Assembly (NCBI RefSeq): GCF_015679265.1
Contig: NZ_CP064942.1
Location: forward strand, 1,396,001-1,460,000
DNA length: 64,000 nucleotides
Direction: 5' to 3'
Origin: Pontivivens ytuae
Lineage (GTDB): Bacteria > Pseudomonadota > Alphaproteobacteria > Rhodobacterales > Rhodobacteraceae
Part shown: positions 52,285-57,436 of the stretch, in pieces
Numbering within the stretch: the first letter of the stretch is position 1
Layout of the letters: every line of letters starts with the position of its first letter
Program-made: the position numbers and the translations under genes
Notes under the pieces: model-generated
What the model was told of the DNA's origin: nothing
The model's input: the letters and a program-made list of their open reading frames with translations, nothing else
Database searches by the model: none

Positions 52285-53103
52285 TCAGATGGTTAGGCCG
52301 AAGCGCTCGCGCAGGATCGTGCGGTCCTTCTCGCCGATGGGAGAGCCCGCGCGGGCCAGCGAGCGGCGGGAGCTCATGTTGTCTTCGTGGTTCGTCATCA
52401 GGAACATGTCGTCGCCCGGCACGCTGATCTGCGGCACGATCCGCTCGATCTGCTTGTGGGGGCCGAGCGCGTGGACCGTGCGGAAGGTGTCGGAGCCGCG
52501 GACCACGCGGACCAGACCGCACGCGGTGCGCGCCTTCACCCGCCGCTGGATCCGCCAGTTCGAGCCGAAGCGGCTGAGGAAGATCCCGCCCGAGAAGGTC
52601 AGCGAGTAGTCGTCCATGTCGAGCGCCGAGAGGCTCCGAACCCTCTCCACATAGTCGCTCGCCAGGGCATCGTCGTCATCGATCCGGATCGTCACCAGCC
52701 GGTCGTAATCCGCTGGATTCACAAGGTTTGTGGAGCTGAACGCCTGCTCCTCATGCATATCCGTGCCCACGTATGCCACCTCGAACCCCTGCTCCGCCGC
52801 GAGCGTGTCGAGGCGGGTGCGGTGTTCGTCGGGGAGGAGGGTGGAGGAGAGGGCGATGTGGCGGAAGTCGCGGTCGGTCTGCTGGGCGAGGGAGGGGCGC
52901 AGGATGGTCTCGAACATCTCGAACCGGTGCGCCATCCGCTTGGAATCGAAGAGGTAGTCGCGCTTCTCCTCCAGCGTCGGATTGCTGGGGCCGAAGTAGC
53001 GTTTCCAGTTGGTGCGACCGCGTAAGGCCTTCCACGAATGGGCTTTTCTGTCGAGGAGGACGGAAAAGCGCGTGAGGATGAAGATGCCGATCCGTTCGCC
53101 CAT
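52285..53103 (-). CDS. Putative rhamnosyl/glycosyl transferase family protein
   Basis: A 272-residue cytoplasmic glycosyltransferase-like protein of the family annotated as putative rhamnosyl transferase. The N-terminal ILTRFSVL, ETILRPSLAQQTDRDF and RIDDDDALASDYVERV (an Asp cluster for donor-metal binding) fit the family; MTNHEDNMSSRR is the family-like C-terminal part. Donor and acceptor are not known. It is a single gene, not part of a polysaccharide cluster here. Confidence 0.82.
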   Translation of the reverse strand: MGERIGIFILTRFSVLLDRKAHSWKALRGRTNWKRYFGPSNPTLEEKRDYLFDSKRMAHRFEMFETILRPSLAQQTDRDFRHIALSSTLLPDEHRTRLDTLAAEQGFEVAYVGTDMHEEQAFSSTNLVNPADYDRLVTIRIDDDDALASDYVERVRSLSALDMDDYSLTFSGGIFLSRFGSNWRIQRRVKARTACGLVRVVRGSDTFRTVHALGPHKQIERIVPQISVPGDDMFLMTNHEDNMSSRRSLARAGSPIGEKDRTILRERFGLTI

Positions 53104-53176
53104 TCCGCCTGTCTCCGCTCACCGCAATCCGAAGCTCTTTAGGCCGGGGCGACGCCGAAGACAATCGGCGCGGCAC

Positions 53177-53276
53177 GGTTAACGCAGGCCGCGAAGGGCC
53201 GGAGGGGCGTGTGCACAGGGCGTATGATTTGCGTATGACATCCGTGCACCGCTGCGTGCGCAGCCTCGCGTTAACC
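53177..53276. promoter_or_regulatory. Paired GGTTAACGC inverted sites and GCGTATGA direct repeats in a divergent promoter region
   Basis: GGTTAACGC (53177-53185) and its exact complement GCGTTAACC (53268-53276) flank 82 bases. Between them GCGTATGA occurs twice (53220-53227 and 53231-53238), 11 bases apart, about one helical turn. The region separates the leftward glycosyltransferase gene from the rightward BrnA-like gene. The arrangement suggests regulator binding; GTTAAC resembles half of a CtrA-type site, but no full TTAA-N7-TTAA is present. Confidence 0.4.
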
Positions 53277-53310
53277 TTTTGCGGGCAGGATGGGGCTTTT
53301 CGAGGGTCCC

Positions 53311-53649
53311 ATGGCGGATGAATTCGAGCGGAAGAAGACGAAGGCGGAGCTGCGGCGGGAGGCGGAGCTGGCCGCCGAACTCGCCCGGCTGCATGTCGAG
53401 ACGCAGAAGATGATGCACGAGTGGGAGCACCTGCCGTCCGCTTGGCGCAGTATCGAGGACGAGCCGCTCACGCCGCATCGCACGCGGGTCACGCTGCGGC
53501 TGGATACGGACATGGTGAAGTTCTACCGGGCGATAGGCCCCGGCGACCAATCCCGGATCAACGCGATCCTGCGCGCCTACATGCTGGCCCGCCTCGCCAA
53601 GGTCATCGAGGGCCCGCTGGATCAGGACTGGCTGGGGCGGCCGGTTTGA
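53311..53649 (+). CDS. BrnA antitoxin-like protein without a BrnT partner
   Basis: A 112-residue protein. The N-terminal half is a charged helix (KTKAELRREAELAAELARLH), and the C-terminal half carries the ribbon-helix-helix-like TRVTLRLDTDMVKFYRAIG and SRINAILRAYMLARL typical of BrnA antitoxins. BrnA normally follows and neutralises the RNase BrnT, and none is found upstream or downstream. Orphan BrnA-like proteins are frequent in Rhodobacteraceae and may be plain DNA-binding regulators. The ATG at 53311 follows GAGGGTCCC; one at 53290 is also possible. Confidence 0.75.
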   Translation: MADEFERKKTKAELRREAELAAELARLHVETQKMMHEWEHLPSAWRSIEDEPLTPHRTRVTLRLDTDMVKFYRAIGPGDQSRINAILRAYMLARLAKVIEGPLDQDWLGRPV

Positions 53650-53783
53650 ACCAGAGTAGCCGAGCCCAACCGTCGTCAAATTAAGCATGCTTCACTGATA
53701 CCACTTATTGCATAGCTCAAATAGTCCAGCCTGCTATCTGAAGCCAAGTTCTAACTAGACGTAGAAAAAAATCTTGGCTATAT

Positions 53784-53789
53784 TATAAT
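53784..53789 (+). promoter_or_regulatory. Perfect TATAAT -10 box before the AT-rich cassette
   Basis: TATAAT at 53784-53789 sits 28 bases before the likely TTG start, after an A-rich tract (GTAGAAAAAAATC). A good -35 at 17 bases is not evident. Such AT-rich promoters are typical of recently acquired DNA. Confidence 0.5.
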
Positions 53790-53816
53790 CTATGATTATC
53801 GTTGGGGATTGATGCA

Positions 53817-54698
53817 TTGCGTATAATCTTGCCGCCACTCTTGGCATTGACACTCATGAGCTGCGGAGGACGAGAGACCGTAACATCTGTTGATGCTTCA
53901 AGTTCAGGTTCGATCTTATTGACCACACCTGTCATGGTCGATGGCCGTCAGGTTGACGCAGCGCACCCTTCTCTTCGAGCAAATGTGCAAGATCAACTTT
54001 TGGCAAATTGCGCTCAGGATGCGTGTATAGCACCATCAGCCAGAAACTCAGTAGATTACCTAAATGTATTAGCCTCATCAGAACGCCCTCAGCCCACTAG
54101 AGACTTTGGAGTTCTAGATCTGAACAGAAACGAATACCAAGGCTACAGAGGCTATGGTGTATTAATGTTTACTCGTAGTCCTGATTTGAATAATGCTAGA
54201 GATCGACAAATATGTAGATCTTTTATTAGATTAAATATTGAAGACAGTCGATCACGAACGAGGCAGCGTGACCGCTTTGTTACAATATGGCCGATCGAGC
54301 AGTATTTATATCAAAATATTACCGAAGAAAATACTCCACGTGATATAGAAAGTGTTTGTAACTATGCTATTGAAAATTATGATTATAATATTGTATCAGA
54401 GATACTACCGCGCATTTGGTCTAAAGAGCTTCCGATTTCAAGACTTGGCCAAGGGCCTTATTTAGTTGGCTGGCTCCCAGCCAGCAACTTATCCAATCCC
54501 GATGCTCCTATAATTATTGTAGATATGTCTTCAGTGGAAGAACGGTCAGAAATTGATGAAGTTATCCTTCAGTGGCGATCAGATATAATGTCCGATCCAA
54601 AACTATTGAACCTAGACTCAACAACTCAGATTACACGGATGAAGATTCGAAATTGGCTAGATAGGTTTGGATCAAAATTACTCATGATACTGGAGTAA
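53817..54698 (+). CDS. Unknown lipoprotein in an AT-rich island
   Basis: A 293-residue predicted lipoprotein: a short signal (RIILPPLLALTLMSCGG) ends with a Cys lipobox near residue 16. The start is placed at the TTG at 53817, where GGGGATTG serves as ribosome site; a TTG at 53802 would add five residues. The body has four further Cys, in ANCAQDACIAP, IC and VCNY, and an FVTIWPIEQYLYQNI stretch. I recognise no family. Base composition is unlike the neighbours: the 60 bases at 54181-54240 have only 15 G+C, and AT-rich codons dominate. A 57-residue membrane protein follows two bases after the stop. Recent horizontal transfer is likely. Confidence 0.75.
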   Translation: MRIILPPLLALTLMSCGGRETVTSVDASSSGSILLTTPVMVDGRQVDAAHPSLRANVQDQLLANCAQDACIAPSARNSVDYLNVLASSERPQPTRDFGVLDLNRNEYQGYRGYGVLMFTRSPDLNNARDRQICRSFIRLNIEDSRSRTRQRDRFVTIWPIEQYLYQNITEENTPRDIESVCNYAIENYDYNIVSEILPRIWSKELPISRLGQGPYLVGWLPASNLSNPDAPIIIVDMSSVEERSEIDEVILQWRSDIMSDPKLLNLDSTTQITRMKIRNWLDRFGSKLLMILE

Positions 54699-54700
54699 AT

Positions 54701-54874
54701 ATGGAACATTTATTGAAGCTTGGGCCCTGGATTGCAGCGGGCTTAGTAGTAGGCATGATCATAATATCTTGGATAGACCCTCAAACGACACCGGGCTTTA
54801 CTGCTGGAGTTATAATCATAGCCTTGATATTTATCATCATGGGGGCAATATTTAGATACTTTTTCGGAGATTAA
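54701..54874 (+). CDS. Small two-helix membrane protein following the AT-rich lipoprotein gene
   Basis: A 57-residue open frame from ATG 54701 to TAA 54874, short enough to be missed by gene finders. It has two hydrophobic segments (about residues 8-24 and 33-52) joined by a short polar turn (WIDPQTTPG), and ends FRYFFGD. It begins 2 bases after the lipoprotein stop, TGGAG lying upstream as a ribosome site, so the pair should be co-translated. The AT-rich composition matches the lipoprotein gene. A holin-like, toxin-like or anchoring role is possible but not shown. Confidence 0.65.
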   Translation: MEHLLKLGPWIAAGLVVGMIIISWIDPQTTPGFTAGVIIIALIFIIMGAIFRYFFGD

Positions 54875-54893
54875 TAGAGGGGATTAATTTTAA

Positions 54894-56549
54894 CTAGCGC
54901 ACAAACTTCTTGTACTTCAACCGCTTCGGCTCTACCGCATCCGGCCCCAGCCTGCGTTTCTTGTCTTCCTCGTAGTCCTCGAAATTGCCCTCGAACCATT
55001 CTACATGGGCTTCGCCCTCGAAGGCGAGGATGTGGGTGCAGAGGCGGTCGAGGAAGAAGCGGTCGTGGGAGATGACCACGGCGCAGCCCGCGAAGTCGAC
55101 CAGCGCATCCTCGAGCGCGCGCAGGGTCTCGACGTCGAGATCGTTGGTCGGCTCGTCGAGGAGGAGGACGTTGCCCGCCTCCTTCAACAGCTTGGCCATG
55201 TGGACGCGGTTGCGCTCCCCGCCCGACAGCAGCGAGACCTTCTTCTGCTGGTCGCCGCCCTTGAAGTTGAAGGCGCCGACATAGGCGCGAGAGTTCATCT
55301 CCGCATCGCCGAGCTTGATGATGTCGAGCCCGTCCGAGATCTCCTCCCACACGGTCTTGGTGGCGTCGAGCGCGTCGCGGGACTGGTCCACGTAGCTGAG
55401 CTTGACCGTGTCGCCGTAGTCGATGGCGCCCTCGTCGGGCTGCTCCTGCCCCGTGAGCATGCGGAAGAGGGTGGACTTGCCCGCCCCGTTCGGGCCGATC
55501 ACGCCGACGATGCCGCCGGGCGGCAGGGAGAAGTTGAGCCCGTCGATCAGGGTGCGGTCGCCGTAGGATTTCTTGAGGTCCGTGACCTCGATGACCTTCT
55601 GGCCGAGGCGGGGGCCGTTGGGGATGACGATCTGGGCGCGGCCGATCTTCTCCCGCTCGGATTGGTTGGCCAGCTCGTTGTAGCGGTCGATCCGGGCCTT
55701 CTGCTTCGCCTGGCGGGCCTTGGCGCCCTGGCGCATCCATTCGAGCTCGCGCTCCAGGGTCTTCTGCCGGGTCTTGTCCTCCCGCGCCTCCTGCTCCAGC
55801 CGCTTGGCCTTCTGCTCCAGCCAGGAGGAGTAGTTGCCCTCGTAGGGGATGCCGCGACCGCGGTCGAGCTCCAGGATCCAGCCGGTGATGTCGTCGAGGA
55901 AGTAGCGGTCGTGCGTGACGATCAGGATCGTGCCCTTGTAGTCGATGAGGTGACGCTGGAGCCAGGCGATGGTCTCCGCATCGAGGTGGTTGGTGGGCTC
56001 GTCGAGGAGCAGCATGTCGGGCGCTTCGAGGAGGAGCTTGCAGAGCGCCACACGGCGCCGCTCGCCGCCCGAGAGCTTGGTGACGTCGGCGTCGTCGGGG
56101 GGGCAGCGCAGCGCCTCCATCGCGACGTCGATCTGGCTGTCGAGGTCCCAGAGGTTGGCCGCGTCGATCTGATCCTGGAGGGCCGTCATCTCGTCCATGG
56201 TCTCTTCGGAGTAGTTCATGGCAAGCTCGTTGTAGCGGTCGAGGATCGCCTTCTTGGCCGCGACCCCCTCCATCACGTTGCCGCGGACGTCGAGGTTCTC
56301 GTCGAGTTGGGGCTCCTGCGGGAGGTAGCCGACGCGGGCGCCCTCGGCCGCCCAGGCCTCGCCGGTGAAGTCCTTGTCGATGCCGGCCATGATGCGCATC
56401 AGGGTGGACTTGCCGGCGCCGTTGACGCCGACCACGCCGATCTTCACGCCGGGCAGGAAGGAGAGGCGGATGTTCTCGAAGGTCTTCTTGCCGCCGGGAT
56501 AGGTCTTGGACACTCCGTCCATGTGGTAGACGTATTGATAGGCGGCCAT
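54894..56549 (-). CDS. ettA: Energy-dependent translational throttle protein EttA (ABC-F)
   Basis: A 551-residue cytoplasmic ABC-F ATPase that binds the ribosomal E site and gates entry into elongation according to ATP/ADP levels. Two ABC domains are seen, with Walker [10 protein letters not shown] and GPNGAGKST, and signatures [11 protein letters not shown] and [11 protein letters not shown]. Between them is the charged linker ([20 protein letters not shown] and following). Opening [19 protein letters not shown] is typical of EttA. The ATG at 56549 is used because the sequence before it is not EttA-like. Confidence 0.95.
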
Positions 56550-56617
56550 GGTCTTCTCCCGTATCACGTTCGGCCCTGATCTAGCTTGGCCGTGCGGGCG
56601 GTGCAACGCGGCTCGCG

Positions 56618-57436
56618 TCAGTCCAGCGGATCCTCGCGACGCAGGCGGTGTTCGAGGAGGCGGATGGACGCGGCGGTGAGCATGGCCCAGCTCAGGACTG
56701 CCGAGACGGCGAAGACCATCCAGACGGGGATCGGGCGCTGCGTCGGGCCGGTTTGGGAGAGCGCGACTTCTGCGATCACCAGCGTCAGGCCCAGCGCGAG
56801 ACCGAGGAAGATCGCGCCGAAGACCAGCAGATGCAGCGCGCCGCGCGCGAAGGTGGCAAAGGGCAGATCGAGCGTCGCGGCGTGCTTGACCAGCGACAGC
56901 CCAAACGGCGCGAAGATCAGCATGAGCGAGGCGTAGACGAGGAGGAGATGGTCGCCATACGCCTCGGCAAACGCGTCGAGGCGCGGCAGCGCCAGCTCAT
57001 CCAGCAGCGGCGCGTGAAAGCCCGTAACCAGAAGGAGCCCGATCCAGATCAGTGCGACCACGGTCAGCGGCAGGAGGAGGCGCAGCAGCCACAGGCGCTC
57101 GGGCACCAGAACCATCCAGCCGCGCCCTGTATCGCCGTGACCCGCCGCGCGCACAACACCGCGATGGATGCGGAACACGGCGAGGATGCCGAAGTAGATC
57201 GGGACCAGCATGGCGATAAAGAGCGACGGATCCTCGATCGGCTCCCGCGGGCCTCCTCGGCGGCTGGGCAGTGCGTTGAAGAGGTCTCGCAGAAAGGTCT
57301 CGGCGCCCTCGGGCAGGTCCACGGTCGGCAGCCAGAGGGCGAGGCCCACGGTCAGCAGGAAGTAGGGCGCGGCGAAGAGCAGACCGGCGAGGCCTACGAA
57401 TGGCGCCACGAACAGCGTCTTGATGTGAAACAGCAC
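56618..57436 (-). CDS. Hypothetical integral membrane protein
   Basis: A 272-residue protein with about six hydrophobic segments (roughly 12-35, 70-88, 112-138, 160-182, 198-225 and 235-255) and no recognisable motif. The start is a GTG at 57436. It lies 68 bp upstream of ettA's start on the same strand, but runs away from it in order: this gene is downstream of LysR and upstream of nothing coupled. No substrate or partner can be suggested from the sequence. Confidence 0.78.

Follow-up and report, generated by a model that had tools for sequence, protein, structure and literature searches.

How does a stretch of strikingly AT-rich DNA come to lie in a GC-rich genome, and what might its genes do there? 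The question is raised by a segment of Pontivivens ytuae (Rhodobacteraceae) at positions 53650..54893 of a 64,000-nucleotide (nt) stretch of contig NZ_CP064942.1, hereafter the window. The segment fills the space between the stops of a BrnA-like gene and an ettA-like gene, and it holds one gene for a putative exported lipoprotein of 293 amino acids (aa) and one for a membrane protein of 57 aa. An initial interpretation, the sequence-only reading, had described it as a self-contained, recently acquired unit. We find that the two genes travel together, that the 293-aa protein is a member of a rare family and not an ORFan, and that the Rhodobacteraceae have an insertion hotspot on the 3' side of ettA. 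The two-gene module itself is well supported. Our overall reading, which we favor tentatively, is that the segment is a rare, horizontally moving envelope module in this hotspot, plausibly one that acts in phage exclusion.

The gene pair and its AT-rich segment

The 57-aa gene (54701..54874, + strand) begins 2 nt after the stop of the 293-aa gene (53817..54698, + strand, with a TTG start and GGGG at 53804-53807), and a GGAG at 54692-54695 lies within the end of that first gene. Together, the short gap and the GGAG suggest that the two genes are translationally coupled. The 57-aa protein has helices at residues 2-24 and 30-55 in its structure model (mean predicted local distance difference test score of 82), in agreement with the coupled two-helix membrane protein that had been proposed. 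We read 22 distinct loci of the family (the window, L003, L007-L024, L042, and L043, with L002 and L009 counted as one locus), and at all 22 the large gene has directly downstream of it, in the same orientation, a gene for a small hydrophobic protein. These proteins span 57 to 125 aa, depending on the start codon read, and their genes start between -11 and +15 nt relative to the large-gene stop at 21 of the loci and at +72, by its annotation, at the other. A script that looked just beyond the stop for a small open reading frame (ORF) containing two hydrophobic stretches gave a positive result for 17/17 family genes and for 2/350 control ORFs; the controls, at least 180 codons long, came from all six frames of these loci, of three hotspot loci, and of the window, so many of them are not genes. 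We consider it very likely that the two proteins form a conserved envelope pair.

The abrupt change in composition that first drew attention to the segment is real. Its G+C content (GC) is 0.41 over the 1244 nt at 53650-54893, against a window mean of 0.675, and that of 53690-54893 is 0.406, or a z of -6.4 relative to 1204-nt intervals (mean 0.675, standard deviation 0.042) taken from the 64-kb window only, with 53690-54893 itself counted in. The next-lowest such interval away from the segment has a GC of 0.590, and the 60 nt at 54181-54240 hold exactly the 15 G+C that had been reported. Third-position GC is 0.33 in the 293-aa gene and 0.44 in the 57-aa gene; in the flanking genes it reaches 0.94 (ettA) and 0.88 (BrnA-like). 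The border at the ettA stop (54894) stands as first drawn, while the opposite border, previously placed at 53690, moves about 40 nt upstream to the BrnA-like stop (53649). The segment does contain the TATAAT box described as its own (53784..53789, + strand), a possible -10 box that together with TAGAAA matches at 10/12 positions; since the promoter scan returned 5 sites versus 3.3 +/- 1.7 in shuffled sequence, this box alone is not above chance. As previously noted of the edges, only short repeats occur and none frames 53650-54893, and no tRNA was found within the window. Rfam gave no match across 53000-56700.

A rare family with differing N-termini

Neither window protein matches a model in Pfam, NCBIfam, PADLOC, or PHROGs, and a single-sequence search of 5.8 billion proteins returned nothing but the window's own 293-aa protein. 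For the family of the 57-aa protein, Pfam matches were weak and scattered, none being common to more than 3 of 15 members; the 57-aa protein matched no fold in the PDB at E 0.001, and a viral fold library likewise yielded nothing at E 0.001. Relatives of the larger protein did emerge from other searches. A protein search of 295 Rhodobacteraceae genomes recovered two distant relatives besides the window copy, and at both of them a gene for a small hydrophobic protein comes next. Profile searches recovered at least 7 and at least 29 proteins, own included, with at most ~8000 candidates scored. A pattern scan found at least 13 loci in named genomes, among them Rhodobacteraceae, Ruegeria, Salipiger, Alloyangia, Oceaniradius, Roseitalea, Rhizobium, another Rhizobiales bacterium, Thalassospira, Geminicoccaceae, Neomegalonema, and Halomonas halodenitrificans. 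The large gene is also plasmid-borne, in 9 records from Sinorhizobium medicae and 1 from Alloyangia pacifica, 3 of these 10 records having been read.

In overlapping samples that include the window's own genome, the large gene is carried by 5/394 genomes of the family, 1/4 of the genus, 3/385 of the class, and 1/398 of the phylum. A common core family of Rhodobacteraceae is therefore ruled out, and the claim of a self-contained, recently acquired unit, to which a core family with the same gene order in most Rhodobacteraceae would have been fatal, survives. That claim is further borne out by the absence of the gene from 3/3 congeners, by a GC about 0.26 below the surroundings, and by the recurrence of the pair. 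In comparison, gene GC lies within 0.09 of that of the locus in 18 relatives, and within 0.06 in 16 of them. In the tree, the window copy, whose best identity to a relative is 31%, has an end branch of length 4.1 and clusters with P0013 and P0014 (97/97), both of which carry PG_binding_1, a placement that is unsure given so long a branch, as the tool itself warned. We also considered a phage origin and rejected it, as we found no viral-contig match with one pattern, no phage record with one relative, and no PHROGs match.

Several other copies share positions with one another. L003, L020, and L021 lie between what we take, by eye, to be iron-sulfur assembly and NfeD/stomatin genes; L018 and L019 are near presumed lon and tgt genes; and L010 and L011 follow what appears to be an ETF-QO gene. 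The common positions within these three groups look vertical.

The 293-aa protein has L-M-S-C at residues 13-16, read by eye as the lipobox (L-M-S-C16) of a signal peptide (53817..53864, + strand); a lipobox can be made out by eye also in L043 and P0009. The previous description of a 293-residue lipoprotein of no nameable family holds for the reading frame and for the family, and its lipoprotein character is a reading by eye. The conserved part of the protein is a C-terminal domain of about 200 aa (residues 92-292; 54090..54692, + strand), which among relatives is joined to differing N-termini: a lipobox, PG_binding_1, LysM, or a PRC-barrel. Alignments show its conservation, and the structure model with its fold matches suggests an alpha/beta, thioredoxin-like domain, for which a profile test was negative. 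In a fold search with the predicted structure, model residues ~95-265 superpose on thioredoxin-fold proteins, and C-x-x-C occurs in the conserved domain of 0/43 sequences, which suggests a thioredoxin-like fold without CxxC. The alignments show two invariant cysteines, C133 and C181. Most residues that never vary are of structural kinds (G, P, W, Y, C), neither His nor Glu being among them, and they are retained across relatives at ~20-30% identity. In one relative, P0016, the N-terminal region (residues ~70-270) resembles by eye a degenerate caspase-like domain, with nothing above the Pfam cut-off.

The 3' side of ettA as an insertion hotspot

The sequence-only reading overlooked that the ettA flank itself is a hotspot. 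EttA was matched strongly in 66 other genomes, of which we compared 39, taking the best-ranked and skipping G043 (contig end) and G019 (two matches). In the 36 regions with enough sequence, mean GC on the 3' side of ettA was 0.569 in the first kilobase versus 0.638 beyond 1.2 kb (Wilcoxon p 2e-5), and the first kilobase was poorer by more than 0.08 in 15/36. A peroxiredoxin gene served as the control, a comparison limited by its being a single gene: 0/32 regions showed such a drop (4 of the 36 genomes had no strong peroxiredoxin match), with means of 0.633 and 0.625 (p 0.22). The difference between 15/36 and 0/32 has a Fisher p of 1.4e-5.

The site holds varied cargo. In two congeners, the interval between the BrnA-like gene and ettA has other contents: a GNAT-like gene, below the Pfam cut-off, plus a small ORF in G211 (interval GC 0.446) and an HNH gene in G394 (interval GC 0.59, gene 0.536). 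The third congener, G395, has no BrnA-like match and carries a KaiC-like gene, by eye, after ettA. In three further genomes of the family, a BrnA-like gene near ettA is accompanied by a methyltransferase gene (G013, interval GC 0.454), a GHKL ATPase (G184, interval GC 0.453), or an unnamed AT-rich gene (G035). Among 20 hand-picked site proteins scanned against Pfam, which include the recurrent ORFs described below, 5 passed the cut-off, 4 had weaker matches (DUF6082, MTS, GNAT, and DUF3800), and 11 had none. The passing models were Abi_alpha (PF14337, E 1e-17), PIN_12 (E 9e-11), HNH (E 1e-4), DUF4238, and HATPase_c. PADLOC models matched 2/10 site proteins, one of them weakly, and the PIN_12 protein also matches PDC-S34 there. 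Five site proteins compared with PHROGs included matches to a phage-type DNA methyltransferase (E 9e-59) and to a phage family of unknown function (phrog_30306, E 2e-119), the latter from a 349-aa gene directly after ettA (L105:2536-3582).

Two further kinds of gene caught our eye at this site. A recurrent ~200-aa protein of the FFTV...DHLHAVW type is encoded close after ettA in five genomes (L075:2769-3380, L076:2927-3484, L086:2995-3495, L088:366-962, and L091:2969-3502). We take these ORFs to be look-alikes of REP-associated transposases, an identity not confirmed by the four that were scanned, which match no Pfam model. In addition, L080:257-1279 and L099:2261-3409, both AT-rich and after ettA, are alike by eye (a C..C...IKSH motif) and have no Pfam match.

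Neither flanking gene belongs to the pair. The ettA-like gene (54894..56549, - strand) encodes an ABC-F protein, and its name is one that we presume, following the sequence-only reading. The BrnA-like gene (53290..53649, + strand) matches PF14384 (BrnA_antitoxin); no + strand ORF of at least 40 aa is listed at 53183-53278, and none of BrnT size lies directly upstream, BrnT itself not having been searched for. Matches to this gene occur in 72/198 genomes of the family, with ettA beside it in 4/32 loci examined (own included, 1500-nt flank). Since it is present in 2/39 ettA regions, it is not a regular part of the ettA site.

What the pair may do at the envelope

The idea that the pair acts at the envelope fits the signal or lipobox, the peptidoglycan-binding N-termini of relatives, and the membrane hairpin, while the toxin-like or phage-exclusion role first suggested is still conjectural. 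We regard phage exclusion as the most likely single function, albeit one that we infer with a likelihood a little short of even. It gains new contextual support because the ettA hotspot holds Abi, PIN, HNH, and methyltransferase cargo. The Abi_alpha, PIN_12, and HNH genes occupy the same chromosomal slot and also have a GC below their surroundings, although their proteins are unrelated to the pair and the association is by place only. A PADLOC scan of 10 hand-picked neighbors of other copies gave 3 matches. Two are encoded on the Alloyangia plasmid (an IetA-like AAA protein and a DEDDh exonuclease), and the third is a Fic protein ~6 kb from a Sinorhizobium copy. These matches are generic and hence weak.

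If the pair does exclude phages, the C-terminal domain could be a thioredoxin-fold binding domain without redox cysteines, positioned in the periplasm. There, it would contact the short acidic periplasmic loop of the hairpin (of the W-x-P-x-T-x-x-G type) and hold or gate it; envelope attack or DNA injection by a phage would then release the hairpin, which may alter the inner membrane so that infection is blocked or aborted. Of the elements of this scheme, the pair with its anchors and topology was obtained by computation, as was the hotspot; contact between the two proteins, the hairpin as effector, and phages as the target are inferred. A more ambitious version, which we think unlikely, is an undescribed form of envelope-surveillance immunity spread via the ettA 3' hotspot, in which a non-redox periplasmic thioredoxin-fold domain, borne on anchors that can be exchanged (lipid, peptidoglycan, LysM, and others), would sense the envelope damage of phage entry and control a two-helix effector in the inner membrane.

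Three results weigh against phage exclusion by such a domain or do nothing to help it. A profile comparison with 3 thioredoxin domains gave no support for sequence kinship to thioredoxins, the reported alignment falling outside the conserved domain; PADLOC-DB 2.0.0 gave 0 matches at E 0.1 for both window proteins and eight relatives; and several copies occupy apparent housekeeping positions, with gene names assigned by eye. The last of these favors accessory envelope maintenance, in which a periplasmic adaptor would tie peptidoglycan or the outer membrane to the small protein in the inner membrane. Such a tie would serve stress or envelope integrity and have no part in conflict. The PG_binding_1 and LysM N-termini fit this explanation, as do the common positions in Ruegeria/Pukyongiella, Alloyangia/Salipiger, and Oceaniradius/Roseitalea. 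However, the family is very sporadic for a maintenance function, some copies are on plasmids, and the window copy lies in a hotspot with some conflict-type cargo; we thus judge maintenance doubtful, although it survives best among the alternatives.

The combination of one C-terminal module, different N-termini, and a small downstream gene at every locus read could also describe a polymorphic toxin, secreted or on the surface, with the small membrane protein as its immunity partner. Small membrane immunity proteins are known for membrane-acting toxins, yet many toxin types would be expected where we see one domain family with one kind of partner, the largely structural invariant residues include no His or Glu, and no secretion or toxin model matches, making this explanation distinctly unlikely. 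More improbable is a membrane toxin-antitoxin pair that maintains its element, with the hairpin as a membrane-damaging toxin and the exported protein as antitoxin. The adjoining genes, the tiny two-helix protein, the plasmid copies, and the GNAT-like gene that a congener has at this site together with a small ORF would suit such a pair, but the first protein has an export signal and is much longer than typical antitoxins, no regulator gene is present, and inheritance looks vertical for some of the chromosomal copies. That the segment is functionless foreign DNA in decay, to which the isolation, AT-richness, and lack of a close relative might point, is hardly credible given two intact frames, invariant residues kept in divergent relatives, and a conserved pair.

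Returning to phage exclusion, we compared the pair with known proteins and systems. PDI b' domains, ERp27, and calsequestrin, which have a thioredoxin fold without CxxC, resemble the model in strand and helix order and superpose over the residues given above, with no sequence similarity found; unlike them, the window protein is bacterial, carries an export signal and additional helices, conserves two cysteines that stand singly, and has a partner membrane protein. The PG_binding_1 (PF01471) and LysM (PF01476) models match the N-termini of several relatives, whereas the window copy matches neither and has its lipobox by eye; the common C-terminal domain is in no library searched. ZorB of the Zorya defense system also carries a peptidoglycan-binding part. 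Zorya (ZorA/ZorB) and a membrane-bound nuclease system are reported to be envelope-located defenses (PMC11890865, PMC13190303), and our pair would likewise act at the envelope during infection. The segment differs in having no motor, nuclease, or helicase gene, and it has no PADLOC match.

Among the published titles compared, none names the pair or an ettA hotspot. Although it matches no Pfam, NCBIfam, PADLOC, or PHROGs model, the pair is genuine, and as a unit of two genes it is both conserved and mobile, with a partnership that is testable. If its role is indeed phage exclusion, it would add a type of envelope-based immunity with exchangeable anchors. The 3' side of ettA in the Rhodobacteraceae is a compact hotspot with many unnamed AT-rich genes and, as such, a place to seek more defense genes.
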